A stretch of 64,000 nt of DNA from Norana najaformis (lineage: Eukaryota > Annelida > Clitellata > Crassiclitellata > Hormogastridae), in contig OZ029921.1 in assembly GCA_964023275.1 (NCBI GenBank), positions 12,467,806 through 12,531,805 of the forward strand, given 5' to 3'. This document shows positions 1 through 53,810 of this stretch, one piece after another. The notes beneath the pieces are model-generated. The model saw nothing but the letters and a program-made list of their open reading frames with translations, made no database searches and had not been told where the DNA came from. How positions within the stretch are numbered: position 1 is the first letter of the stretch; every line of letters begins with the position of its first letter. The translations under genes were made by a program, and so were the position numbers.

Positions 1-978
1 GACTTCGTTTGACCTCTTTGACGACAGCAGTTGACTGGCAAACAACATCAGAAATTGTTCTAAGTTTACTCAAGTCAGTCATTAATAAATTGAGTCCGTG
101 AGCAGCACAGCCGTAGCAAGATATCTGTGGGTATTTGTTCTCAATAGAATCCCATGCAGCTTTCATATTGGAAGCATTGTCTGTCACAACACCAACAAAT
201 TTAGACTCACCAACAGCATCAATTACTTCACTCATTTTCTTTGCCATGTACTCGCCTGTGTGGCTCTCAGCACCAGTTGTCATTGTTTTGTAAAAAATGG
301 GATGTGGTGTTGTTACAATGAAAGTAATAATTGACTGGTTTCATCTATTACTCCACCCATCACAAGTCAATGCCAGACCATCTGATGACGCGAGACGTTC
401 GGTTACATCGCATGAAACACGTCCATATTCAGCATATAGCAAATTATTTGAAAGACTGTAACGACTTGGGAGCGTGTATGATGGGCGAAGTTTTGCGAAC
501 AATTCTTGCCAAAGCGGACTTTCAACAATAGATAAGGGTGTTGCAGTGCCCTGGCTAATAGTTCATCAGTGCTTGTTTGTTCTTTAATATCCATTCTATC
601 AACAAAAGAACTAACAGTAACTGTGGGAGCCCTGGTGCTAGTGGCAGTACTGAACACGTTTGCAGTGAAAGAGCGAGACTGTGTATATAATGGAATTGTT
701 TCAAGGTTTTGACAAGTTGATGCTGAACCCAAAGAAGCTTCTGAACTTGGCATTGAATTGGTTGAAGCTGCCACTGCATTGACTGGAATTACTGAATTAC
801 TGTATTTTCTCTTGATTTGGTCTGGACATTTCGGGCACTTCGACAAATGTTTGTCTAATCTGGTGCCATTGTCGGCACCCGTCCACTTGCAAAACTTGCA
901 CTGAACTTTTCGCATTTTCCCAGTAGAGGCGACACTATTAAAAAGTTTTCTTGCTGGTGTTTGCTTACGTCCAGGCAT
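1..978 (-). pseudogene. hAT transposase with BED-type zinc finger, 5' half, broken
   Basis: A DNA-transposon transposase entering from the left window edge. It opens with a true ATG at 978-976. A BED-like finger lies at about residues 26-50, with CKFCKW and the HLSKC pair. Serine/threonine-rich linker sequence follows. Downstream, on the same strand but in another frame, positions about 190-1 read through motifs typical of the hAT RNase-H-like core: VVTDNASNMKAAW, then CYGCAAHGLNLL (DUF659-like). The frame changes near 520-540, where an expected stretch matching SPLWQELFAKLRPSY continues in a second frame, so this copy cannot make a full protein. The catalytic C-terminus and hAT dimerisation domain would lie outside the window. 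Family assignment is firm; sub-family is not resolved. Confidence 0.85.
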
Positions 979-1749
979 AATTCAGCTTTGACTCTTGTCT
1001 TTACTCTTTAGTCCCTACTCCCTAGTCCCTACACAATGCAATGCAATTTTTAAAAAAGCTTTAGGAAGAGGGAGTCATCATAAATGTATGCATTCACTAA
1101 TCACTACTGACTAGTCTACTCCATTAATATACGGTCCTGGCACTAAATCAACAATACACAATTGATTTTTCGTTAAAATTATAAATGCTTTAAACAACTA
1201 TTACCTGAAGGATGGATCATGGGATTAGATAAAGATGTAAGATAAGAGAAAACAGAATTATCGATTTTTCGGGAAACCGAATTTCGGTTGTAAAAATACA
1301 ATTTTAAACCCAATTTCGGTTATGATTAATGATTAATGATTATTTTCTACTTAGAGATTGAAATTCTAAATAATAATAATAATAATGATACCGTACGTTT
1401 ATTTAAGAAGTCTTTCATTCGTCAAACAACATAAATAAAACCAGGAATAGGCATGACGACGGAAACTGTGTACAAGAAATCCATCATGGCTGCCATCGAC
1501 TACGATCAAATAGAGTGCAAACAATGACAAGCAAAGTAACGTCTGCTATTATAAAGTTAATATCCGATTGCAGAACAGACCATCTCTTTGGAACAGCACC
1601 ATGTCATTGGAACAGCAGAAACTGGTCCAACTCAAGACATTGTGTCAATTTGTGTGCATCCAATACTTCAAAACATGTTGTTTTTTTTGGTCATTGAAAT
1701 ATTTCAAAAAAACCTGTCAGAAATGAAATATTTCAAATGAAATATTTCA
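979..1749. other. non-coding stretch upstream of hAT gene
   Basis: No credible gene. It holds AT-rich sequence with short iterations: TAGTCCCTA-type repeats near 1008-1033, TTAATGATTAATGATTA near 1325, and an AAT run near 1370. Several copies of GAAATATTTCA-like palindromic sequence lie near 1695-1750. Part of it is probably the 5' flank and terminal region of the hAT element, but I could not locate a terminal inverted repeat. Confidence 0.5.
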
Positions 1750-1754
1750 CGCTC

Positions 1755-2745
1755 ACATCACTACTTGCACCGCTTCTATATATCCTGTATACTGCTGACC
1801 TGGCCAGTATACTTCTTCCCTTGGGTGTTTCGTCTCACCAATAACTGATGACACTCAATCCTTTACTCATGGCCCGGCTGCCTCAGCCACTCTGATGGTT
1901 GAGCGGATCCTTGAGGCCACCTTTGTTCTAGGTCTCTGGGTGTCTTCTAACCGCCTCTGTCTTAATCCTGATAAGACTCAATATATCTGGCTAGGTGGCC
2001 GTGTCCAGCTTGCCAAAATTGACTTTAGTTCCCTTTCCTCTAATTTCCCTCATATCCACTTCTCTTCCTCAGTCCGTGACCTCGGAATCATCCTGGATCA
2101 AACTCTTTCTCTGACTGACCATGTAAATAATATCTCCCGCTCTTGTCTTTACCACCTATGACAACTCCGCTCTATTCATCACTCGCTTCCTCTTCATGCG
2201 ATCACTACCTTGGTCCATGCCCTGATTTGCACTAGGATTGACTTTGGCAGTACTGCCTATATTGGACTTTCTGCAGTTAACACCTCCAGGCTTCAGTCTA
2301 TACTTAACGCTGCTGCACGCCTTATCGGTGGTCTTCCAAAGTCTGCCCATATATCTACTTTTATCCGTGACTCACTTCATTGGCTTCCTGTCAGTCAACG
2401 CATCCAGTTTAAGATTCTTATCCTTATGCGTAACTGCCTTCTAGGCTCTGCTTCGTCCTACTTCTTTTTGTATTCCGGTTTCCTCGTTGCCTGCCCGTGC
2501 CTCCCTTCGCTCAGCTACCCATGGTCTCTTGATAGTCCCTTGCGTCCGCACTACGACTGCTCAGTCCAGGAGCTTTGCCTTTGTTGGCCCTTCCAGCTGG
2601 AACTCCCTTCCTCTTAACCTGCGGCTTCAGTTACTTAGTCTCTCTCCTACCCAGTCTCGCAAACGCCTGAAATCCTTTTTGTTTGTTCAAGTCGGGAGCG
2701 CCACTGTTTCCTAAGTGGCGCTTTATAAATGTTCGTTTACAATTA
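1755..2745 (+). pseudogene. CR1/L2-like LINE, reverse-transcriptase C-terminal part, broken
   Basis: Fragment of a non-LTR retrotransposon polyprotein in several frames. Recognisable pieces in order are PLLYILYTADLA (RT block before the catalytic motif), SSNRLCLNPDKTQYIW, SSVRDLGIILDQ, LQSILNAAARLIGG, and LHWLPVSQRIQFKI. The order and wording match the end of CR1/L2-like open reading frame 2. An in-frame stop sits at about 2159 and the frame shifts again near 2450. The element ends with TGGCGCTTTATAAATG near 2718-2733, the 3'-end signature shared with other LINE copies here (for example 19780-19800). It is 5'-truncated, as usual for LINEs. It is closely related in sequence to the copies at 28.8 kb and 45.5 kb. 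Confidence 0.85.
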
Positions 2746-3479
2746 TGGGGCACTTTGGGTAGGCTGAAAATTTGCTGGTATTTATTCTCCCTCCCATATA
2801 CTACTGCCTTACTAATATTCAATATATTATTATTGGATATGGCTGTCATTAGAAAACATGCTTATACACATTGTTACCAGAAACTTGTGTATGGATCATC
2901 TTATCCCAATACAGATGAGTATGTACTGAATGGTACTGTAGGGGTCATGATGAGATGGTAGTAAATGGTAGTGGGCGTGTACTGTTATCTAGACTGCTCT
3001 CAGTCTATCACAGATGTTATATTTTTGAAACCTTACATCATTTAAAGCAAGATAATATAATTAAGCACAGAAATAAGTGGAAGATATTTTTAGAATTGGG
3101 TCATAAACATGAAAATGGACCAATTGAATCGGACATTTAGATCACGAATTGAAATAACCCAAGATGGTGGCGTGTTGTTGTTTCCTTACTGACGACGAAA
3201 TTCTGCAAATTCTTGATCCACGACATGCTATTGGACCGTCAAACTGGGTCAGGCAGATGACTCTGGCGAGATAGACAGGACTGAACAGGCATCAGATCTT
3301 CCCATTTCACCCCTAACTGTTCCATTTACAAGCATCTGTGGTGGACCAACCCATGTTGCACCATTTTTGAATGTTTTATAGCTGTTTTTAGATAACAGTT
3401 TTTGATGTGCTAGTTGAACAGACCAACCTGTTTGCTGAGCAGGGTAGGTCAGGTGCATCGGCAGTGCTGACCATAGCAG

Positions 3480-3668
3480 AACATCAGGCCTTCTCGTACT
3501 TTCGATCCTCCTACTGTAACAGCCTTTCTTTAAACATTTGTTCTTTATCTCTTCGTTTAACTCAACATTGATTTTCTGTTCACCCTGAGATGCACTTGTT
3601 TAGATCGTTTGGATAGCCATGTGAGAGATGCTTGAAAGGCGCTGTATAAATTACATTACAGCAGGTAG
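3480..3668 (+). repeat. LINE 3' end remnant
   Basis: The stretch ends with GAAAGGCGCTGTATAAATTACATTA, which resembles the 3' terminus of the CR1/L2-like LINEs in this window (GGCGCTTTATAAATG followed by a short A/T tail). No coding part is recognisable. The assignment rests only on this terminal similarity. Confidence 0.5.
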
Positions 3669-3709
3669 GTAAAATCCACAGTGCAAAATGAAACCCTACT
3701 TCTCCTCTA

Positions 3710-4450
3710 GAGATTCGTGCATTTGTCAGCACCAACATCATGATGGGCTTCAAGATGCAACCACTTTTGTATCACTGTTAGTCAACTGATACCTAGCTCA
3801 GTGATCCCTGGATTTCAGGGACCATGATAAGGGATCAGTTCATGGCCTTGAACAGGTACCTTCATTTGGCAGACAGTACTCAGTCTCCTATAAGGTATGG
3901 TTCCAGTTATGATCCATTATGTAAAGTTTATCCTGTGTTAGATCACCTCAGTTCTAAATTTTCAGAGTATTGCAAGCCAGGGAAGAATCTGAGCATTGAT
4001 GAGTCAATAGTTTGGTTCAAGGGAGATGTCATTTCAAACAGTATTGTTCCAAACAGCCAACCAAGTGGAGTTTCAAAATTTTGACCATTGCTGACTCAGA
4101 AAATGTATATGCCCCATTCCAAGAAGACTCAGTACGAATGTGAAGTATGCAAAGTTGCTTTGTGAAAGTTGGATGCTTCCACATTTACCACAAGCAAAAT
4201 CAGATAGTGGTTCTATGAACCAGTGCTAAGTAAATAACTAAGTGGGGTGTAAGGAAGGTAAGCAGTATACCACATCAAAACAACTGCTCAAATTTCCATT
4301 CTAAATTCTCCTCCTAGAACTGTTCAGTCCAGTCTGTCGAGAAAGAGGAGTCGATCCAGGAGACTTCAGCCATCTTCAAGGTGACCATCCACTGTCGATC
4401 CAGCATTCATAAAAATGGCTCTTTCAGAGTCCCCAAATACTTTAAAAGGA
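3710..4450 (+). pseudogene. piggyBac-like transposase remnant
   Basis: The open stretch 3824-4084 reads RDQFMALNRYLHLADS, then DPLCKVYPVLDHL, then CKPGKNLSIDESIVWFKG. This is the start of the piggyBac DDE_Tnp_1_7 catalytic domain, where SIDES contains the first catalytic aspartate. After a frame change the text continues as FTIADSENVYAPFQ near 4078-4125. About 90 codons of a normally 500-600-codon protein survive. A cysteine-containing piece near 4340-4400 may belong to the C-terminal region but is weak. No TTAA-flanked terminal repeat was found. Confidence 0.75.
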
Positions 4451-4584
4451 AACATATGTCAGTGTGTTTGCCTCTCTGTGTGCCTGGCTTGATGTGATGT
4501 TTCTGTTGTTGCCCTGTTGTTGTGCATGTTGCAGCATTTTTGATGTTGTGGTTATATTGCTGTGCATGTGTTTGGGAATTGGTG

Positions 4585-5280
4585 GGTGGGTAGGTAATTT
4601 TGAGTACTCCAAAATTTTTCTATCACAAACTGGACAGAAGGATTGAAAGATGAGATGCTAAAGAATGATGTAAACCTGAAGTCTGTGCATCAAAAATGGC
4701 CAAGATCTTTTAAGTTAAAATTTCTTACTTTTTAGACATTTTCTTATAACTCCTTCAATTTTTATGACTACTGTGTGCATACTAATATTTTCAAAATTTT
4801 TTGAGGGTTTTATCTGGTATTAATTTTTGCACAGTTCTTATGCTGACACTACATATGTTGTCACTGAAAATGTTTTCTATAGGGGTTTGAACTTGACAAA
4901 AAGTTAAAAAAAAATGGGGTTGGGTACAGTTTGGGACAACTGTGAGTATCTCCAAAATTTTGTATCAAAAATTGTACAGAGGGTTTGAAAGAGGAGATAA
5001 AATGTCAAAGAATGTTGTTAACCTCAAGTCTATACATCAAAAAATGACCAAGATCTGATAAGTTAAAAATATCTTACATTTCTGGCGTTTTCTTATATTT
5101 CCTTCAATTTTACGACTTCAGTCTATGTACTAAAACTATTCTATCATATCCTTCATTTATGAAAATACTTTCAACATTTCTTTTGGGTTTTGTCTGGTAT
5201 TGATTTTGGCACAGTTTTTGTGCTGGCGCTACATATGTTGTCACTGAAAATTTTGGGGCTTGAACATGAAAAAAGTAACT
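4585..5280. repeat. imperfect tandem duplication, period about 335 bp
   Basis: Two diverged copies lie head to tail. Features that recur in order are: CTCCAAAATTTT with ATCA-AAA..TGGACAGA/TGTACAGA; GAAAGA.GAGAT; GTC.ATACATCAAAAA; TGACCAAGATCT; TTCTTAT..(T)CCTTCAATTTT; and TTTTG.CTGGTATT. The first copy starts near 4597 and the second near 4940. AT-rich and non-coding. The block may be part of a non-autonomous element or a piggyBac 3' flank. Confidence 0.65.
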
Positions 5281-13990: not shown

Positions 13991-14575
13991 CCTTGGACAT
14001 TATGATAATGGTGCTGTAGAAGTAATTGAATTACATAGTTTAGATCATATATGATGATGCATAAATCCATGATTGTTCACGTAACCAATGATACTTCAGT
14101 AACAAATGTCCGAACAGTGTCCAAAGCAATAAAAAAATGACAGCGAAAGAGAGAAGTAACTTCAAGAATGCGTAGTAGGTCACATTAGAGTCTGAATGAA
14201 CTAAAATTATCTATCAAAATCCGCATCAAAAGCAACATGCTAGAGAAACATGCAGCCATGTATGCCTTTTCAATAAATATTTGTAAAAAATAAATCATAC
14301 TGGTCAGACATTTTAAGATGTGGGTTGGTGCTTGTAGAATAGCATGGACGAACCTCGTTTTATGGCCTGGGTGGATCTGCAGGAGATTTGTGTGTTTGTG
14401 GTTATGAAAAACCTTTTTTAGATGTTTAATTTCTGTATGGTGTATGCGTGTTAGGGTTTTATGCATGAAAATATGTTTTTTGCTAAGAAGGCTTATTTCT
14501 ACTGTGTAGTAATTTCTGGCAGGTAATTATTGGATTAGCTGAAGATTTACTGACAAATTCTTTCCAATATTTCAG
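13991..14575 (+). other. probable intron upstream of the Kelch-like exon
   Basis: AT-rich, no coding motifs. It ends in a pyrimidine-rich tract and TTTCCAATATTTCAG, a good metazoan 3' splice site. The upstream exon or exons were not recognised in this window. Confidence 0.5.
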
Positions 14576-16354
14576 GTTTCAGAAACAAAATTGAAGTACA
14601 TTAATCGACAGTACAAAAAGGTGTCATCGAAAATGTATGATTACAACTGTGATGTTAAATTGATTGTTGGGAATGAAACATTTAAGGCTCACAGAGATGT
14701 TCTGGAACAAGCAAGTGATTATTTCTCTGCTATGTTCACGCATAACATGCAGGAGAAGGAAAATGATGTGATAGAATTGAAAGAAATCAGCCCATCAGGT
14801 TTCACATCTATGATTGAGTACTTCTACCATGGTTATGTCACTATTGATACAAATAACATCCAAGGAATCCTAGAAGCTGCTAGATTCTTTCATATAGAGT
14901 GGCTGATTAAAGTCTGCCATCACTACTTGGTTCATCATCTCAGTATTGAAGACTATCATGCAGTTCTTCAGTTGGCAGATGCCTATTATTTGGGAGTGGA
15001 GGATGTGCAAAGTAAAATTCTGATTTTTTTCTGTGATAATTTTCTACAACTGTCAGCAAAGCCAAAGTTTCTTCGAGTGCAGTTTGAACTTATACATCAG
15101 CTTTTGGCTGAAGATCATTGCATTCAGGCTCCAGAAGGTTTTATTCTCAAAGCAGTTCTTCGTTGGATTGAGTATGACTTGCCAGTTCGTCAGGTTCATA
15201 AAGTTGAACTGCTTCGGCTCATCCGTTACCCACTACTGGAAATGGATGAACTGAACAGCATTGATGAAAGTGTGCTTGCTCTTCCTGATATCATACCTCT
15301 TGTTGATGAGGCAAGAAACTATCTCAGTATTCCTAGTCGGCAGTGTCTACTAAACTCTGAGAAGACAGAAGCAAGAGGATCCAAAAATTTCCTTGTTCTG
15401 TACTCGGGAATTGAAGATGACAACTACATTAATTACAAGTCTGCTGAAGGAGCTGGATTTCTTACGGAAAGCTTAGATACCTCATTTCTGCAAGTTGTTT
15501 TTGAATTCTCTTCTGTGGCAGGTCTTGGAAATTTTGTCTTTGTTGCTGGTGGTTATGGGCGTGATAGATGGTGTAGCAGTTCAGCATTTTATCGTTATAG
15601 TCCACACAGTCTTCGATGGGTTGAGCTGTCATCTATGCAGCAGGCAAGGGTTAGCTTTCCTTTATGTCCCTCAGAAAGAATTCTGTATGCAGTCACCGGT
15701 GTTGATCACATTGTTCTGGAAGGTATTGATCGAGAGATTATTCTCGACTCTATTGAGTTTTACAATCCAGAAGATAACTTGTGGCACTTCATTCCACCAT
15801 TACCATTTGGCTGCTTTAATGTTGGAGCTGTGATTGTCAATGAAAAGTTATATGTGACAGGTGGTATTAGTGATGATCCAGAGCACAATGTACCTGTCAG
15901 TTACATGCACATGTACAATCCTGTGGAGGAAGCCTGGACATCTTTAGCCAGCATGCTTACTGAACGTCACTGTCATGGCATCTTTAGCCTTTCCAGCAAG
16001 CTGTATGTATGTGGTGGTTTCACTTGTGGAGATGACATGATGGGATTTAAAGATTGCTTAATCAATGAGGTATACAACATGGAAACTGATCAGTGGAGCA
16101 TTCTTAGCAATACACCGTCCATCTATGGTCATCTGTATGCATCACCAGTAATCTTCAATGATAGAGTTTACATCCTCAGTGGTTCTAGCAAAGAACAGTT
16201 CTTTCTGCACAGGTTTTGTGAAGAGACAGGAATTGTAGAAGATGGTGAACCATGTGGACCATATGTCCATAAAATGGTCACCCTGAAAGTTCCCATGCCA
16301 ACACAATATTTAGATGAACTTCTGTCTCCAAATTCTAAGGCAGAGATGTCTTAA
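14576..16354 (+). CDS. Kelch-like protein (BTB-BACK-Kelch), large 3' exon
   Basis: Substrate adaptor of a Cullin-3 ubiquitin ligase by family knowledge. The frame is open from the AG at 14574-14575 to TAA at 16352-16354. If no 5' exon is used, the first in-frame ATG is 14633. However, VSETKLKYINRQYKK upstream of it resembles the usual lead-in to a BTB fold, so an upstream exon is likely. BTB domain: CDVKLIVGNETFKAHRDVL through EYFYHGYV (Cul3-facing). BACK domain: about residues 125-235 with HHLSIEDYHAVLQLADAYY and LLRLIRYPLL. Kelch blades carry double glycines: FVFVAGGYGRD, KLYVTGGISDD, KLYVCGGFTCG and RVYILSGS. Length is typical of KLHL proteins (about 570-620 aa). No frameshift. Orthology to a specific KLHL member is not clear. 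Confidence 0.93.
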   Translation, partial: VSETKLKYINRQYKKVSSKMYDYNCDVKLIVGNETFKAHRDVLEQASDYFSAMFTHNMQEKENDVIELKEISPSGFTSMIEYFYHGYVTIDTNNIQGILEAARFFHIEWLIKVCHHYLVHHLSIEDYHAVLQLADAYYLGVEDVQSKILIFFCDNFLQLSAKPKFLRVQFELIHQLLAEDHCIQAPEGFILKAVLRWIEYDLPVRQVHKVELLRLIRYPLLEMDELNSIDESVLALPDIIPLVDEARNYLSIPSRQCLLNSEKTEARGSKNFLVLYSGIEDDNYINYKSAEGAGFLTESLDTSFLQVVFEFSSVAGLGNFVFVAGGYGRDRWCSSSAFYRYSPHSLRWVELSSMQQARVSFPLCPSERILYAVTGVDHIVLEGIDREIILDSIEFYNPEDNLWHFIPPLPFGCFNVGAVIVNEKLYVTGGISDDPEHNVPVSYMHMYNPVEEAWTSLASMLTERHCHGIFSLSSKLYVCGGFTCGDDMMGFKDCLINEVYNMETDQWSILSNTPSIYGHLYASPVIFNDRVYILSGSSKEQFFLHRFCEETGIVEDGEPCGPYVHKMVTLKVPMPTQYLDELLSPNSKAEMS

Positions 16355-19977: not shown

Positions 19978-20139
19978 GATGGGAAGCAATATTTTTAAAG
20001 CGGAAAACTAGAAGCCCAAGCATTTGCCTAAAAGCACGTGGGGCAAGGGCGACGTAAGAGTGCTATTTTTAGAAACAAAATTCCCTGTGGGAAAAGTCCG
20101 TCACGCCAAACATCCCGCGTCGAGACCAAAGATGGTCGA

Positions 20140-20165
20140 GACCAAAGATGTTAACATCTTTGGTC
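20140..20165. repeat. perfect 26-bp palindrome
   Basis: GACCAAAGATGTT followed directly by its reverse complement, with GGTCGAGACC-type iterations on both sides. It could form a cruciform or be an insertion scar. Confidence 0.7.
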
Positions 20166-33056: not shown

Positions 33057-34433
33057 TTACGGGGGTAGGTCGCAAGAGGACAGAATAGAATCCTGTAACG
33101 TCGTGGTGCCTGCGGCTGAAGCCAAGAAGGCGGGAAGTGCCAGCGTGGACGCGCGACGTATACCAAGACCTCCGTCTCGGACAGGTAAAGATGCCTGATC
33201 CCAGCTCTGATCATTCAGAGCCAAGTTGAGCATGTTGGTGAGGCCTTTGCGCAGCAGTTGGTCGAATGTGTCAAGAGCCGGGTTGTCCATGCATGGTGTG
33301 CAGCGGAGTGTGTGGAGCAGGGTGCAAGAGCTTAGTGAGTTGCGAAGAAGAATTATGGCATCATGCCTAGACATGTAAGCCAGATTGTCAATCCCTAGTG
33401 ATAGTTGTGCGCATCGCTTCTCCAGTGCATCCCTTAGAGCTCCGCCCGTGGAAAGAGGTGCGCCCAAAAGATAAGCATTGTCAGAAGGTGTGACCGTGAA
33501 ACAGTCTAGAGGAGATGGCAGGTTGCTAGATTGGATGTGTGTTATAACTTCGCACTTACTGACATTAAATGTCAAACCCATTTCGCCCGCGATCCTGATA
33601 ATAGATTCGACGTCTGCCGCCACTACGGATGCTTTCCCACCCAGAGTGAGGTCATCCAAATAGTCAAGGAGTAGAGAAGAAAGACCTGTCAGAAGCGGCT
33701 GAATGGGGAGGCAGAAGAGAAATGGACCGAGGGGATCTCCTTGCTGTGGACCTGTTTGTGAGAGTATAGTAAAATCGCCGTATTTAAGAGAGGAAGGTCT
33801 GGAATAAGCCAAACTGCAGTAGGGATAGAGCTCCGGAATGACATCCGATATCGCCGCCAGCATGTGAGTGCGGCTAAGGCTATTAAAGGCAATGCTGAAA
33901 TCAAGTTTGACCAATACTGAGTCGGGGGATAAGTCAGTGAGAAAGCGCCTGGCGGCGTGCACCGCCGCCTCACAACCCCCTGGAGTCCCAACTCCTAGCT
34001 GGAAAGGAGCGAAGTAGTCACACAGGTGGGCAACGGCGAAAGCGTTAGCGCATTTAGAAGCCAGGCATCTCCAATAATAACCAATGGCAATCGGCCGAAC
34101 TCCCCCTGATCTCTTCCTGAGGGCGAGCAAGGTGCCCCCAAACAAGTATCGACTAATATCGTCTGGACATATCCCTGCCAGCAAAAGGTTCGTAAGGGAA
34201 GTCAGGGATGTCACAAGGTTGGGGCCGACCTCCTTACAGTTTACTAAGTCGAGGATGTGCTGGGGTCGAATTCCGTCAGGATCGCCCGCCGAACCCGCCG
34301 GAAAGGAGCGGACTGCACGCAAGACCGCGCCTTCGGTTACGTGAAGAGGGGGCATGTCTGAAGCTGATGGTAATGTACTTTGCGTGTCTTGAGGCGGAGG
34401 ATGCTTTGCACGCAGTTCCTCAGCAGATTCCAA
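33057..34433 (-). pseudogene. RLE LINE, reverse transcriptase
   Basis: A 458-codon open stretch. Blocks: AGSAGDPDGIRPQHI, GGVRPIAIGYYWRCLASKCA, LGVGTPGGCEAAVHAARRFL, LVKLDFSIAFNSLSR (first catalytic D), TGPQQGDPLGPFLFCLPI, LLDYLDDLTLGG (catalytic motif YLDD rather than YADD), EMGLTFNVSKCEV and LPVRDGGLGIRR. All RT catalytic residues are present. The GTPGGCE and QQGDPLGP wording separates it from the CR1/L2 copies. Uninterrupted over its whole length. Confidence 0.88.
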
Positions 34434-35251
34434 GTCGGCTTGAATGGGGAGATCATCAGAGCATAGAATTCTAACGGCGGCGCGTATGTTACCATCTTCA
34501 AGTTTTGCAGAAACCGCCTTTGCGATGCCGTCTGGTCTGATCTTGCGGTTGAGCGTCTAAAGGTCAGTCCTGCCTCTGTGGTGAGGATGGAAAAGCGAGC
34601 TCCTGCTGCCATCTGAGACCGAAAGGCATCCATCCTCTTCTTGATAAGGTGGGTTAAGTTGTGTCTCTTGCCCCTTCTTGTTGGGTGTGCGAGAGAAGAG
34701 CAACCGAAAACTATCAAGCTAATCCAGGCGTCTCGATCTAGTGGGTTGCGAATGATGTTGTCGATGATTGTAATCAGTAGATTAGCCATTGCCGGCCTTG
34801 CCCCCCTAGGAATGTGCTTAATCAGGCTGCCCGGAAAACTTGGATGGTCAAGGTGAAAATCCGTCGACGAAGGAACTTGATCAGTGTCTACATTGGGGGA
34901 AGACAGCGATTGACTCTGACTGAGGGCTATGCCCGGCGCCGCTGGTGGGGCAAGCGTCGAAAGCGGCGGTTTGTGCGACCCTGGACAAGGGTTATTCCGT
35001 GGGCCGTGTTTGTGAACAAGGCCGTCGACAAGGTGCAACTGTCTAGTGGCCTTGCAAACGCTACAGATTCCCTTGGCCTTCTGCGTTGTTTGTGATAACG
35101 GCCATGGTTGATTGACATATTCAGCCGTTTGACTGACTGAGAGAAGACAGGGACTCGCTCGGCGACGACGCGATGAATGGCGGCGTTGTGGAAAAGTTTC
35201 TGAATCCTTAGAAGGCCTTTGAATCATTACACAGTGATACCAGTTAGTCAA
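34337..35251 (-). pseudogene. RLE LINE, N-terminal zinc-finger region
   Basis: A 304-codon open stretch with an N-terminal zinc-binding motif: GICSVCKATRQLHLVDGLVH then KHGPRNNPCPGSHKPP (C-x2-C ... H ... C). Next is a conserved helical part with FPGSLIKHIPRGARPAMANL and LAHPTRRGKRHNLTHLIKKR. Such fingers bind target DNA or RNA in R2-like elements. The frame breaks near 34430, and the correct frame for the RT continues in the next entry; the last 30 or so codons listed here are out of frame. Confidence 0.75.
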
Positions 35252-35275
35252 ACAGCCGACGATAAACTGTTAGAC

Positions 35276-35313
35276 CATGGACTCCTCTATAATAGCACAG
35301 CAGGACATACAGC
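35276..35313 (+). repeat. P element left terminal inverted repeat
   Basis: 38 bp, starting CATGGACTCC and ending ACATACAGC; exact inverse at 38976-39013. Preceded by GTTAGAC. Confidence 0.92.
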
Positions 35314-36059
35314 ACAGGCGCTGCCAAGTGGGCCTGTATACATCAGTTGGTCTACTGCTGGCTAAGCCTGTTCGCTCATACTCAACTGCGGCCAGCGCAT
35401 GCAGAGATTAGTTGTACACGCATCGAGTTTGAAATTGTACGTGTGATGAGAAATAGTTACAATACTTGTGGTAGGCTCGTTACAAAGTAAGTTGGTGAAC
35501 CTGACAAAATTCGTAACTAGGTAAGTATTTCGAATTACAATGATACGACTATTATTATAATCAAGAACAGCGTCGTTATCAAGCAGGGAGACAGCGTACG
35601 AGACGAGTTGTTTTCAAAACTGTCATTGTATTTTTTCATAAAATTTCAATTTTTAACTGTTAAATCCTCGATAACGGCCTGTGAGTTTTTAATTTTGATT
35701 CATTATTTGTATTTTCTGCTGCTCAGTTGTTTTAATTTATAATTTCTGCGCCGTTCATATTGTAATCGCTTGCCGCCGGTGTTTATGAACTTTTGGTCTG
35801 CATAAGCACAGCAATTTCCCAACCATACTTTATTAATTTTACAGTTTTAAGCCAACACTAACAAAGGCTGGCCCTTTTACTTATCTAGCGTTCATGAGTT
35901 GCCCAAGAACTGAAGAACTGCGCTTTTCATTTTGAGGTCATTCCAATTTCTCTAGCTCTGTCCCTTGGCATTGTATTTTGCTGGTTGTATAGGTGGAATG
36001 ATGTCTACTTCATTACGTTGCATGCTTTTATATTGTATACTCGTCCTCGGGTCATAACT

Positions 36060-36435
36060 GATGCATCAAAATATGAGCTTAAAACCCATGTACTAAAACT
36101 GTTGCATTGACTTTCTGTTCATCAGAGAATTTGTTTTAAGTTGGGGCTTATAGTATATGAAACTTTTCACTTTTGCCGACCACAATACTTAAAACCAGTC
36201 CTCATTCGAGCTTATCTGAACGCCTCTCTCTGGTTGTACCAAAGACTAGAACTGTTGTGGTGAACGAGCTTTTTTGTTGCTGGGCCTACGTTTTGGAATT
36301 CTCTTCCTGCATAATATGTTGAACGAACTTGGTCTGCTCTTTTCTTCTCAGCTTAGGACTTAACTCTTTCAGTTGGCCTATCCGCTGTAGGCTACCTCTC
36401 TGTTCCAGTGGACTGGCCGTCTGGATATTAACCTG
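36060..36435 (+). pseudogene. LINE C-terminal fragment inside the P element
   Basis: Plus-strand pieces RTVVVNERAFLLL, then FWNSLPA and a short tail, match the last block of LINE ORF2 (R..F...GP..WNSLP). Heavily mutated. It lies between the left end and the transposase start. Confidence 0.55.
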
Positions 36436-36648
36436 ACTGACTTGAATATGGTGCATCATCATATATCTTGTGCATTAGACATGGGTGATTTAGAAGTTTA
36501 TAATTAATACTATTCACAAATAATGGCAAAAGCAAAGACAGATCAAGCTTCATATTGTAGCTATAATTTCACTTGCATATTTAGATTGTTCATCTTGGTG
36601 TCCATCTCGTGTTTATTTTATCTGTAGAATTCTTGTCAGTGTGTAAAC

Positions 36649-37557
36649 ATGGTCAACTGTGCAGCGTATGGGTGTCAAAGTGGATATAAGTAAAAAAAAA
36701 CAGCAATTGATGATGCAAACGAGGGCCATCAAAGCATCGAGTATCCAAAGCTGTCATATCACGCCTTTCCCATTCAAAATAAGGATTTATGTGACAAGTG
36801 GGTTCGAGCGATTCGGAGGGAGGATTTTGTACCAACAAAATATTCGAAACTCTGTTCATTACATTTCAAGGAAAGTGACTTTGTTGAAGTCAGCAGGGAT
36901 ACAAATAAACAGAGGAGAAAATCTGATGATAAACACCTTCGTCGGCGATACCTAAAGGATGGCGTTGTCCCCTCGATCTTGCCAAATGCTCCTCAGTACC
37001 TGACAAACACAAGTGGGGTACTGCGGACAACTGTTAGAGCCACATCGAGTAGCAGACTGGAATATGAAGCAATTATCCTAGAACAAATGGAAGAGTCTTT
37101 CCTGGCTGAGGACGACATTTCACAGTTGTCAACGGCTGAAATTGCTGACCGGTTGCAAACAGAAATTACTCTTCCTCAGGGCTTCACAATTAAACTCACT
37201 GACCAGACACTGTACATCTACATGACTGAAGTTACGGACGATGTGCCCAAAATTAAAGGCTCACTTACAGTGAAGACCGATCTGTCTGTAGTTCTTAACA
37301 TTGATGGAAAAACCATTCATGTGTCACAATTCAAAGACCTGGTCAGTGGCTCACTCACGAAGATGTCACAACTCGTCAACTTGATGGCTCTCATCAAGTC
37401 TTTATGTTTAGAAACACAGACAAGATCCCTTGAACTGCTGGTTCACATGGCTGTAGAGTGTCTAAAAGCTGGTCTGGCGAACATAGATGACTCACAGCCC
37501 AGAACATCGGAAGTTAAGTTTCATTGTAGAGCAGCTGCAGCTACTCATGAAGCATAA
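36649..37557 (+). pseudogene. P element transposase, THAP domain and N-terminal part
   Basis: ATG at 36649 opens a THAP finger: VNCAAYGCQSGY (C-x4-C), YHAFP, KWVRAIRREDFVPTK, CSLHF (C-x2-H) and VVPSI in place of the AVPTIF box. THAP fingers bind the element's own DNA. One in-frame TAA (36691-36693) in front of an A9 run interrupts the finger; the frame is otherwise open from there to TAA at 37555. After the finger come acidic and hydrophobic parts with LTDQTLYIYMTEV. The frame shifts near 37500 into the next entry. Confidence 0.85.
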
Positions 37558-38542
37558 ATTTTCTCGCCGGTATTCGCCTCAGCTGATAATTATGTGCTTC
37601 ATGGTCTACGCTGCCAGCAAAGCAGCCTACACTGTTTTACTGGAGGAAAACATTTTGGATATTCCTTCAATCAATACACTAAGAAAAGTTACCAAACGGG
37701 TGAATGTCAGTGAAGGATTGGACAACTCTTCATATTTGAAGCTACGTGTTTCCAAGCTAAATGAGTTTGAAAGAGTTGTTTTACTGATGATTGACGAGAT
37801 CTATATTGCAAAAAGAGTGGAATATAGCGGTAGAGAAGTGAAGGGACTGACACCAGATGGGGCAGTTGCATCAACGTTGTTATGCTTTATGGTGAAATCC
37901 CTGGTTTCCAAATTCAAGGATCTTGTTGGTATCTATCCAATGGCTAAATTAACAGCAGCAAAACAGTTTGAGTGCTATAATGAGGTGATGGCTCTTCTGC
38001 GCAGCGTTGGTCTCAGTGTTATTGCCATCTCAGTGGATAATGCAGCTACAAACCGGAAGTTCTTTGTTGATTTCCTCTGCAATGGCCAGCTGCAGACAAA
38101 CATCACCGATTCTGTCACTGGCCAGCCAATTTTCCTGATATTTGACCCAGTTCATGACTTGAAGAATGTTTACAATAATTTTCAGTCCAGAAAAACCTTC
38201 CAATGTCCACCAATGGGTTCCAACTTGCCTCTGGAAGGATGTACAGTGGAGTTCCAGCACATAGTAGATCTTTTTAACATGGAGGCCGTTATGTCTCTCA
38301 GAAAGGCTCACCGATTGAGTCCAGCTGTACTCCAACCCAAAAGCATTGAAAAAATTTCTGTGAAACTGGCTACTGCAGTCTTCAATGAGTCGACACATGA
38401 TGGTCTGCAGTTCTACGCTTCCAACGAGAACAAGCCACATTGGATGAGCACGGCAGCTTTCATTAAACTAATTATAAAGCTGTGGAATGTCATGAACGTA
38501 AAGTCTAGCACTAAAGGCAAACACAAGCGTGATTATGCATAA
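37487..38542 (+). pseudogene. P element transposase, catalytic part, C-terminally truncated
   Basis: Continues the transposase in the +1 frame: FSRRYSPQLIIMCFMVYAAS, INTLRKVTKR, then the RNase-H-like core with MIDEIYIAKRVEYSGREVKG (first D), VIAISVDNAATNRKFF (second D) and IFDPVHDLKNVYNNF (GTP-binding-insertion region follows in the family). The frame ends at KGKHKRDYA and a TAA at 38540. In THAP9/P transposases about 150-250 more residues, including the final acidic catalytic residue, follow that point; they are absent here. The protein is dead, but the ends remain usable in trans in principle. Confidence 0.88.
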
Positions 38543-38815
38543 TTAGTGAAACTGATCTGTACTATTTCTTTGTTGATCTATTTTTTAAAAATATTTCCAT
38601 TAACACTGTCTTTTGCTCACACTGCACAGCAGCATTTTCAGTTATAGTTACATGAGATGACACATAAAATAACAAAACTAGGGTTCTAAATGGTTCATAA
38701 AACATGTAATCTGTGTTACAAGCATTGCAAAGTTACTGGAAATGCCTAATAGTCAATATTTCCTGGCTTCTTAAATGATGTGCCAGTGTCAACTTTGCAT
38801 ATACTTGCTGTGTAA
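38543..38815. other. P element 3' non-coding region
   Basis: AT-rich, no coding text; lies between the truncated transposase and the subterminal repeat. The missing C-terminal codons have no recognisable relic here. Confidence 0.5.
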
Positions 38816-38975
38816 AGTAGACCAACTGATGTATACGATAAACGACAGCTGTATGTCCTAGTAGGTCCGCAGTTTAACGACAGCTTATGGCATCAAAGGC
38901 CGTTGCCGTCGCCCTCCTCCTTTATCCAGGCTTGGGACTGGCACTACCCCCAAACAGCGCAGTGGCGGAGTTAAA

Positions 38976-39038
38976 GCTGTATGTCCTGCTGTGCTATTAT
39001 AGAGGAGTCCATGCTGTGCTATTATAGAGGAGTCCATG
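38976..39038 (-). repeat. P element right terminal repeat with duplicated end
   Basis: A full 38-bp inverse copy at 38976-39013, followed by a second copy of its outer 25 bp at 39014-39038, then GTTAGAC. The tandem end could result from imprecise transposition or repair. Confidence 0.9.
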
Positions 39039-39365
39039 GTTAGACATATGATCGGCCTTTAACAGAACAATATGTTGCCATGACGATTGTGACGTCGTTG
39101 GCCACTTGAATGTAGGTTCCGGTTTGCTGCCGGCAATTTTGAAAGGCGCGATGATCGCTAGAGATGGAAAAATTTATCAAACCCTGATGTGTTGTGTCCT
39201 GAGTGAGTTGCCGTTGACGGATAGAATCCACGGAGTCAGGAGGCGTTGGCAGAATAACTGATGTAGAAATCCTGCCCTAACGCTGAATGAAACTCGATAT
39301 TTTGCCGTAAATCGCTATCGCTTTAAAATTTTTCCGTCCTGCGCGGTCAACTGATGACGTCACAA

Positions 39366-44200: not shown

Positions 44201-45020
44201 TTCTCCAACTTCTTTGTCACAATGTAGAATTTGTGTTAAGTTTGTGAGCAGAAACCTGGCATTACTCATTTGCAGTCAAATTGTCCTCTTTCTTGTAATC
44301 TCTTCTTGCTACCATTATTTCCCAGATGCCTGCGATAGTTGTAGCAAAATAAAATCCAGCACTTATACAGGAGATGACAAAACTATACCACAACTGGAAA
44401 TATGTTATTTCTCGCACCATTTCTGGTTTGCAGCAACTCCGGGCATCATTAAGAAAACCAACAGAAAATGTGGTAAATTCTGCAACAGTTGCAAATCCTA
44501 TAAAAAAGTCACAAATATTTTCAATTCATTTACATGACATAAGTTTTAATGCATTTACTAGTTGTACGAGAGTTCAAGTTATTTAGAGTGTTACTCCTTG
44601 AACTTTATGCATTCATGCTGCTTCTTGCTACTTGCATCTGTTTTACATGATATACAAACTGTTCCTAATCTAATCTATTCTTAGAACTTCCATAGCACCA
44701 TTTTAATAATGCAATAAGCATCAATTGATAGCACTCAGAAGAAATTCGCAATCCAGTCAATTCTAAGGGTCAGCTCTGAACAGAAATAATGTCTAATTTT
44801 GAACATAAATCTGAGAGAAGAGTTCTGCCCTGTGCAAAACCATGTAAATTATATGAACCAAGAGATAAAACAATCATGTTGTAATGTTTGAGTTACTTGT
44901 TCTTAAAGCATCAGTCATACAACTCACAACCAACTGGCCAGTTGGATTCATTGTAGAACTCCTTCTTGGAATATGTGGAACATGAAACCATTGAAAGCTG
45001 CCTTCCTTTGGCTACAGCTT

Positions 45021-45070
45021 CTTGCACTTTGGGTCTTTTATTCCTCTTGCACTTTGGGTCTTTTATTCCT
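45021..45070. repeat. perfect tandem duplication of 25 bp
   Basis: CTTGCACTTTGGGTC..TTCCT occurs twice back to back with no mismatch. Confidence 0.92.
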
Positions 45071-52802: not shown

Positions 52803-53810
52803 ATGGATGTTAGATTCTCGGCGGCATATTACCGCCCTGGCGGCTACTGGCAGAACCTTGTAGCAGTTAAGAAGCTGGCTGCGCCTGCGAAGGTTTCAGA
52901 GTCTGCTGCCTGTGAATGGCTCAACACGCAGGCCGTGTGGCACGGCTATCTACCTCCGCCGCATTACATTCCACGCCTTCTATTTGACGAAGACCGCCCA
53001 AATGCTGCGCACCAAACCCACTTGCTCTATTTGACCCACGAACGGGTTGACCGCCGAACGTATAAGTATGTGACCGCCGAACGTATAAGTATGCCCCTCG
53101 CCCTTGTCGACGTCGCCTCTCGGTGTAAAGGTGCCGGCTGACCGACAAGAGATCGGGTAAAATGTCGGTGCAGCGCTGAATCGTATCTGAAAACGATCCC
53201 ACTGAGATGGCCAAACGTTCTGTGCGTCGACTCTGGGCGCGAATTCATAGGCATCGTTTCGCAACTGCACGCCAGACATAAAGTGCAGGTGCGGTGCGGC
53301 CAGCCTGAGAACCACAGTCGCAAGGGCACCGTGGAGCGATTCAACCGCACGCTGTCTGAGCACCTTTTCGGGGATCAGTATGCCCAGGAGTTGCTGCCTG
53401 CTGCACGTGGATCTTCAGAGCAGTCCGCAGAGTGGGTGCGCCAGCTGTCTGATGTTGTGTCCGCGTTGAACGACGAGCCAACGTGTTTGATAGATGTGGG
53501 AGGCTGAAACGATCAAAATCCAAAGGGTGGCATATAAGCCCTTTCTACCGGCGCTCTGTCGAGCGTGTTCTTGGCCTTAACGAGCCTATCCTTTGACTTG
53601 ATGTTCTGGTTCGCTATCTGTATGCCCCTGGCGAGCTGGAGTGTGGAGGCGGCTCACTACTGACCTTTGTGGTCGCTTACGTTCATCTAATTTCTCAAGT
53701 CGTTCGCCTTGTATTACTTCGTTTATATGCCTCCTCGCGGTTTCGTGTGCGATGGCTACAGCTTGTGCGAGATGGTACCGAGCTGCCACCCGATCCGATC
53801 CTCATTTGCC
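52803..53810 (+). pseudogene. Polinton integrase, copy 2, frameshifted
   Basis: N-terminal: FSAAYYRPGGYWQNLVAVKK, VSESAACEWLNTQAVW, YLPPPHYIPRLLFDED, PNAAHQTHLLYL. Core: LALVDVASRCK (second strand; a direct 21-bp repeat precedes it near 53060) and, after a gap, RKGTVERFNRTLSEHLFGDQ and VSALNDEPTCLI. C-terminal: VLVRYLYAPGELEC and RDGTELPPDPI near 53775. The segment between DVAS and GTVERF is damaged; minus-strand-looking text indicates deletion and rearrangement. Same family as 11110-12300. Confidence 0.82.

Follow-up and report, generated by a model that had tools for sequence, protein, structure and literature searches.

The window analysed here, a stretch of 64,000 nucleotides from the annelid Norana najaformis (contig OZ029921.1 of assembly GCA_964023275.1, positions 12,467,806 to 12,531,805 of the forward strand), contains at 35269-39045 a transposon of the P superfamily. 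On sequence evidence this copy is dead, non-autonomous and internally deleted, and its ends and relatives place it in a recently mobile P family. The family seems to have left excision scars across the genome, and its transposase would cut one strand about 25 nt inside the element. This whole account, in which the cut position is deduced from repair products, appears to us quite probable. What is new in it is the proposed stagger, together with the scars; that the transposon exists is not.

Terminal structure of the window copy

The window copy shows terminal inverted repeats (TIR) of 38 nt at 35276-35313 and 38976-39013, which are 100% complementary (38/38), and a subterminal inverted pair of 21 nt at 35336-35356 and 38816-38836, also 100% complementary. 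The heptamer GTTAGAC is found at 35269-35275 and 39039-39045, and because the flanking 8-mers do not match, the target site duplication (TSD) of this copy is 7 bp. The outer 25 nt of the end occur exactly three times in the window, at 35276-35300 (plus strand), 38989-39013 (minus) and 39014-39038 (minus); in 100 shuffles, counting with up to 3 mismatches permitted, the mean was 0.00. The outer 25 bp of the right end are thus doubled in tandem, with a perfect copy (39014-39038) between the 38-bp arm and the TSD that abuts it. Furthermore, a 13-bp direct repeat, AGCTGTATGTCCT (38847-38859 and 38975-38987), brackets a 115-bp insert between the right subterminal repeat and the right TIR, which is absent from the full-length copy L012 of the same genome. 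The right flank of another copy, L013, resembles by eye this window fragment (38860-38974), and both may belong to one dispersed host repeat.

A sequence-only reading of the window had described a P element of complete architecture. Its identical 38-bp inverted ends hold at every position, and its 20-bp subterminal pair is present and perfect but 21 nt long. GTTAGAC does flank both sides, although on the right it is separated from the arm by the 25-bp tandem copy. The architecture itself is not complete, since the transposase gene has lost its end, and the right end is altered by an insertion and by a terminal duplication. The features of both ends are as follows:

35269-35275, no strand: left TSD GTTAGAC
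35276-35313, plus: left TIR, 38 bp; 0-3 mismatches in the nine left ends measured, 38/38 in L017
35314-35335, plus: left spacer between TIR and subterminal repeat, 22 nt
35336-35356, plus: left subterminal repeat, 21 bp, element positions 61-81, candidate THAP-binding site (binding predicted)
38816-38836, minus: right subterminal repeat, 21 bp
38837-38847, minus: right spacer, 11 nt, split from the TIR by the insertion
38847-38859, no strand: 13-bp duplication, first copy, flanking the insertion
38860-38974, no strand: 115-bp inserted fragment, not in L012
38975-38987, no strand: 13-bp duplication, second copy
38976-39013, minus: right TIR, 38 bp, inner full copy
39014-39038, minus: 25-bp terminal duplication, identical to the full-length 25-nt piece of the excision scars
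39039-39045, no strand: right TSD GTTAGAC

Transposase gene of the window copy

The frame that begins with the ATG at 36649 is interrupted by an in-frame TAA (36691-36693), and a THAP domain (PF05485, E = 1.4e-13) is found in frame downstream of it. A second frame, 37487-38542, contains PF21787 (E = 5.1e-16) and PF21788 (E = 2.1e-10), and the two frames are offset near 37490-37500. The window copy thus shows, like L012, a THAP domain followed by a TNP-type RNase H with a GTP-binding insertion. Among solved structures, the nearest is 6p5a, the Drosophila P transposase complex (E = 6.8e-4 with the window piece and 1e-7 with the L012 protein). In a large protein set, 148 relatives were found; P0024 is the most identical among the matches listed (83% over 59% of the query).

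Both catalytic Asp of the window piece align with 6p5a, the catalytic residues being numbered D230, D303 and E531 in PMC8230255. The Glu motif aligns in the relative P0046 and recurs in L012 (residues of both kinds matched by eye), and the window copy is without the Glu region. Similarity of the relatives ends at about 38536, and the internal deletion of 1,032 bp (positions 3224-4255 of the L012 element) takes out the region of this third catalytic residue. The D, D, E triad thus appears to be a property of the family and not of the window copy, which is considered dead because of the stop in the THAP-encoding part, the frameshift, the 1,032-bp deletion, the 128-bp insertion near the right end and the 25-bp terminal duplication. 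The coding features are:

36030-36311, plus: remnant like the C-terminus of a long interspersed nuclear element (LINE) open reading frame (ORF), E = 1.9e-7, family-inherited
36649-37557, plus: transposase frame part 1, THAP domain, TAA at 36691-36693
37487-37500, plus: frameshift region between the two transposase frames
37487-38542, plus: transposase frame part 2, TNP-like RNase H N-terminal (PF21787) and GTP-binding insertion (PF21788)
38535-38536, no strand: internal-deletion junction; lost are L012 element positions 3224-4255, with the region of the last catalytic Glu

The LINE-like remnant was also considered as a private nested insertion, which was rejected because full-length L012 aligns through it. 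Similarity to P0084 extending past 38542 was rejected as well, since the alignment there crosses stops. Among 23 C-terminal pieces of relatives, cut by motif and not inspected individually, four (P0003, P0107, P0109 and P0116) match the element and were evidently cut too far N-terminal; the remaining 19 show no match to it, with two chance matches elsewhere (E = 0.31 and 0.58). For the 351-residue window piece, an AlphaFold model had a mean predicted local distance difference test score of 66.7 and was not used. Comparison of the window with Rfam gave no matches, and no tRNA was found in it.

Copies of the family in the genome

The first 85 bases of the element were used as query against its own genome (608 Mb), the resulting counts being lower bounds. 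At least 20 places match, and at least 10 of these are left ends at 95% or more. Eleven copies were examined, the window copy and L009-L018, with the diverged matches L019/L020 and L021 considered for their ends only. Both ends and a perfect TSD are found in nine of the eleven: the TSD is 7 bp in six (window, L009, L010, L013, L014 and L017) and 8 bp in three (L011, L012 and L016). In L010 the TSD lies outside 37 extra left-end bases, and in L016, whose left end has 9 extra bases, the TSD CATTACAA was taken by eye from the flanks. Within the stretches examined, L015 is without a right end and L018 without a left end. The left end of L010 reads as 20 bp of TIR, a filler of 17 bp and a complete left end, all within one 7-bp TSD.

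L012, of 4,604 bp, contains an open transposase frame of 966 codons in one exon, and L009 is full length with broken frames. Seven copies are internal deletions, some with insertions, and 1-6 bases are shared at six of the seven junctions, with none at the window junction (by eye). On the coordinates of L012, the deletions are:

window copy: 1-3223 joined to 4256-4604
L010: 1-797 to 4240
L011: 1-2904 to 4584
L013: 1-2967 to 4226
L014: 1-2436 to 4581
L016: 3998 to 4384
L017: 1-74 to 4581, element of only 96 bp

Copies longer than 1 kb diverge from L012 by 0.47-2.82% (window copy, 1.24%). The family thus has TIR with a 7- or 8-bp TSD, and it shows the several copies and internally deleted derivatives of a mobile element. 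The assignment to the P elements made in the sequence-only reading is borne out by the domains, the 6p5a match, the ends, the TSD and the copies, and the mobile family with co-occurring ends that it expected was recovered by the genome search. It had also remarked on a duplication of 7 bp instead of the usual 8; this is correct for the window copy but not anomalous, because this family makes both lengths and Galileo, another member of the superfamily, mostly 7 bp (PMC4168063).

In the two other sets searched, genome_contigs and viral_contigs, a 21-nt end pattern had no occurrence. Transposase relatives were suggested in 65 stretches of genome_contigs and in 1 and 37 stretches of viral_contigs, none of them confirmed.

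Geometry of the ends

TIR and subterminal repeat are separated by 22 nt in 10/10 left ends (L017 keeps only the first 14 repeat bases) and by 11 nt in six of the seven right ends that carry a complete TIR. The window copy provides the seventh, in which the distance reaches 139 nt, made up of 11 nt plus 128 bp contributed by insertion and duplication. The repeats start at element positions 61 (left, 5') and 50 (right, 3'), so that the predicted transposase site lies deeper at one end by roughly one helical turn. In the fly element, the THAP sites are given at 53-63 (5') and 41-51 (3') in PMC3688188, citing Rio 2002, whereas PMC7776569 has the reverse, with a spacing of 9 bp at the 5' end and of 21 bp at the 3' end. 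Because of this conflict we claim only the offset, and not which fly end is longer. PMC7776569 compares the fly asymmetry with the 12/23 spacing found at V(D)J signals, and the 22/11-nt asymmetry described here would carry it over to this family and also to a second one, the latter on a single element.

Probable excision scars

L011, L014 and L017 keep only 21-24 bp at their right end, and therefore the genome was searched for sites formed by two outer TIR pieces alone. The pattern CATGGACTCCTCTATN{0,30}ATAGAGGAGTCCATG, which permitted 60 bp overall, found 13 sites, and shorter anchors with at most 50 bp overall found 19; the control, a reversed pattern in the case of the 13 sites, gave 0 in both searches. 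The union is 20 palindromic sites, 19 of them independent, since L069 and L070 are one duplicated locus (flanks 49/50 and 48/50 identical). They are 36, 42, 44, 45, 47, 50 or 56 bp long and have no subterminal repeat. A perfect TSD is found at 13 of the 20, with nine of 8 bp and four of 7 bp; six others (L064, L067, L070, L071, L073 and L074) show a 7-mer with one mismatch, and L069 one with two.

No uninterrupted TIR run in the 13-site set is longer than 26 nt. Half of the scars (10/20) consist of two TIR pieces without mismatch, and every one of these ten has a piece that is 24-26 nt long. The forms 25+25 and 25+20 are the most frequent and would fit a GC shared at the junction; the L064 junction (25+17) is without shared bases. 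A single 50-bp palindrome, with 0-4 point changes, accounts for seven of the 20. Beside the normal scar of L066 (C13:1891260-1891404), the left flank shows by eye an isolated, broken 25-nt TIR piece, after which the target flank is repeated.

Inferred stagger of the transposase

The fly P transposase leaves 17-nt 3' tails (PMC7776569), and in fly excision junctions the 8-bp TSD is accompanied by no more than 17 nt from either end and by short homologies or insertions copied from a template (PMC2895639). The scars described here share this form with 25 in place of 17: as repair products, they retain up to 25-26 nt of the TIR, which would speak against a stagger of 17 nt in this family. The terminal duplication of the window copy is 25 nt, or 25-27 counting the two shared junction bases TG. 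From the scar pieces, this duplication and the 25-nt piece of L066, we infer a stagger of about 25 nt (25 or 26) in this family.

The THAP domain would bind the subterminal repeats; cleavage would fall at the element border on the transferred strand and some 25 nt further in on the other, leaving the donor site with 3' tails of about 25 nt. Direct rejoining of these tails would give the scars, while repair partly copied from a template and then rejoined would give internally deleted copies like that of the window. The 25-bp terminal duplication of the latter would be a repair tract reaching the element border plus a 25-nt tail.

Second P family of the genome

A second P-like family, L034-L044 (e.g. 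C14:5377791, C3:12608404 and C11:20824394), resembles P0046 at 32-34% identity, with pairs of copies 97-99.8% identical; three of its copies have frames of 959-962 codons that are open throughout. Its TIR is 26 bp (CACGGCC...), and in L042, which has a 7-bp TSD, a partly shared subterminal sequence lies at 50 and 39, an offset of 11 again, from one element. On the assumption of a constant spacing between the cut and the subterminal site, scar pieces of 14-15 nt were predicted in advance for this family. Three sites were found (control 0), with TSD of 6 bp in L077 and 7 bp in L078. In L076 (C2:45110115-45110251), two outer TIR pieces of this family are joined head to head and bordered by inverted copies of one sequence (12 bp, by eye), without TSD; it looks like a fusion of two identical broken ends and not a simple scar.

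Alternative explanations

Several observations weigh against a cut at about 25 nt. The pieces of the second family reach 18-19 nt, so the advance prediction of 14-15 nt failed and a fixed distance between cut and binding site is not supported. Ten of the 20 scars fit two TIR pieces only with 1-5 mismatches, as follows:

one mismatch: L056, L062, L069, L071, L072
two: L065, L073
three: L074
four: L075
five: L067, with extra bases

The best ungapped splits of L065 are 26-28 nt and that of L067 is nominally 30 nt, so that these two would permit longer pieces, and in L069 a split of 20 fits as well as one of 23-25; the other mismatched scars fit 23-26 nt. Furthermore, the 2-nt GC common to many junctions makes 25 and 26 indistinguishable. 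Taken alone, the 25-bp duplication of the window copy is possibly ordinary slippage, given the other tandem repeats of the window. Perfect two-copy tandem duplications of 14-25 bp are found there at 45020-45070, 53048-53093, 20119-20150 and 1721-1749.

The limit of 25-26 nt could be set by the repair machinery or by short homologies, namely the GC at TIR positions 20-21 and 25-26, instead of by the cut, and many junctions do fit annealing at GC. We consider this unlikely: L064 ends at 25 without shared bases, the piece upstream of L066 also ends at 25 (by eye), and the second family ends at 18-19, although with three sites only, one of them not a simple scar. That two families in one genome end at different lengths points, on very few sites, to the transposase more than to repair as the cause. 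It is even less likely that the 36-56 bp palindromes are miniature inverted-repeat transposable elements consisting of TIR only and moved whole by the transposase. The recurrent 50-bp palindrome, the related ends of all sites and the existence of a 96-bp copy with TSD (L017) speak for such elements; however, lengths and junctions vary, the subterminal repeat is absent, and the same junction classes follow excision of the fly P element. As for the window locus itself, a domesticated THAP9-like gene would also encode THAP and TNP domains, but with broken frames, a deletion, TIR, TSD and multiple copies close to the full-length one this origin is practically negligible.

Excision with a stagger of about 25 nt thus remains our preferred explanation. 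With somewhat less assurance, we favour the view that no single 17-nt stagger holds across the P superfamily: it would be about 25 nt in this family and about 18-19 nt in the second, the scars in the genome revealing the stagger with no need of an experiment, and the subterminal sites of the 5' and 3' ends would be offset by about 11 bp in both families. The long stagger is a mechanistic oddity which the literature examined gives for the fly element only, and a literature search from which subscription journals were mostly absent found no P family with a stagger other than 17 nt. Here, a full-length copy, deleted copies and 19 independent natural scars outside flies make the cut position inferable from sequence, and the L012 family offers a ready substrate and enzyme for an in vitro cleavage test.

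Surroundings of the element

The window also contains an open frame of 602 codons for a BTB-BACK-Kelch protein (14546-16351). On the minus strand, a LINE reverse-transcriptase frame (33060-34556) is adjoined by a same-strand frame (34340-35269) that reaches the left TSD of the P element. A LINE reading frame restored by rejoining the flanks was rejected, since the longest frame crossing the junction by more than one codon has 51 codons, nine of them past it.

Comparison with known systems

The P element of Drosophila melanogaster shares with this family the THAP and TNP RNase H/GTP domains, ends starting with CATG, a subterminal transposase site behind the TIR at a distance unequal between the ends (a candidate site here), scars of TIR pieces between TSD, and internally deleted copies. 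It differs in its TIR of 31 bp against 38 bp, in sites at 53-63 and 41-51 against repeats at 61-81 and 50-70 (PMC3688188), in its cut 17 nt inside (PMC7776569, PMC2895639) against a predicted 25 here, in its several spliced ORFs with a regulated third intron (PMC7776569) against one open frame, and in its TSD of 8 bp against 7 or 8. Zebrafish Pdre2 / THAP9 is, like this family, a P-type system outside insects, with ends starting with CAT, a TSD and internally deleted copies, but has a 13-bp TIR, distant 12-bp subterminal repeats and an 8-bp TSD (PMC10983969). Galileo, of the P superfamily in Drosophila, resembles this family in its TSD, mostly 7 bp and some 8 (PMC4168063), and a further likeness is that functional copies were not found in D. 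willistoni (PMC4168063). Galileo is set apart by very long, internally repeated TIR, with the nearest THAP site about 70 bp in (PMC3688188); the 38-bp TIR described here is not of this long, repetitive kind.

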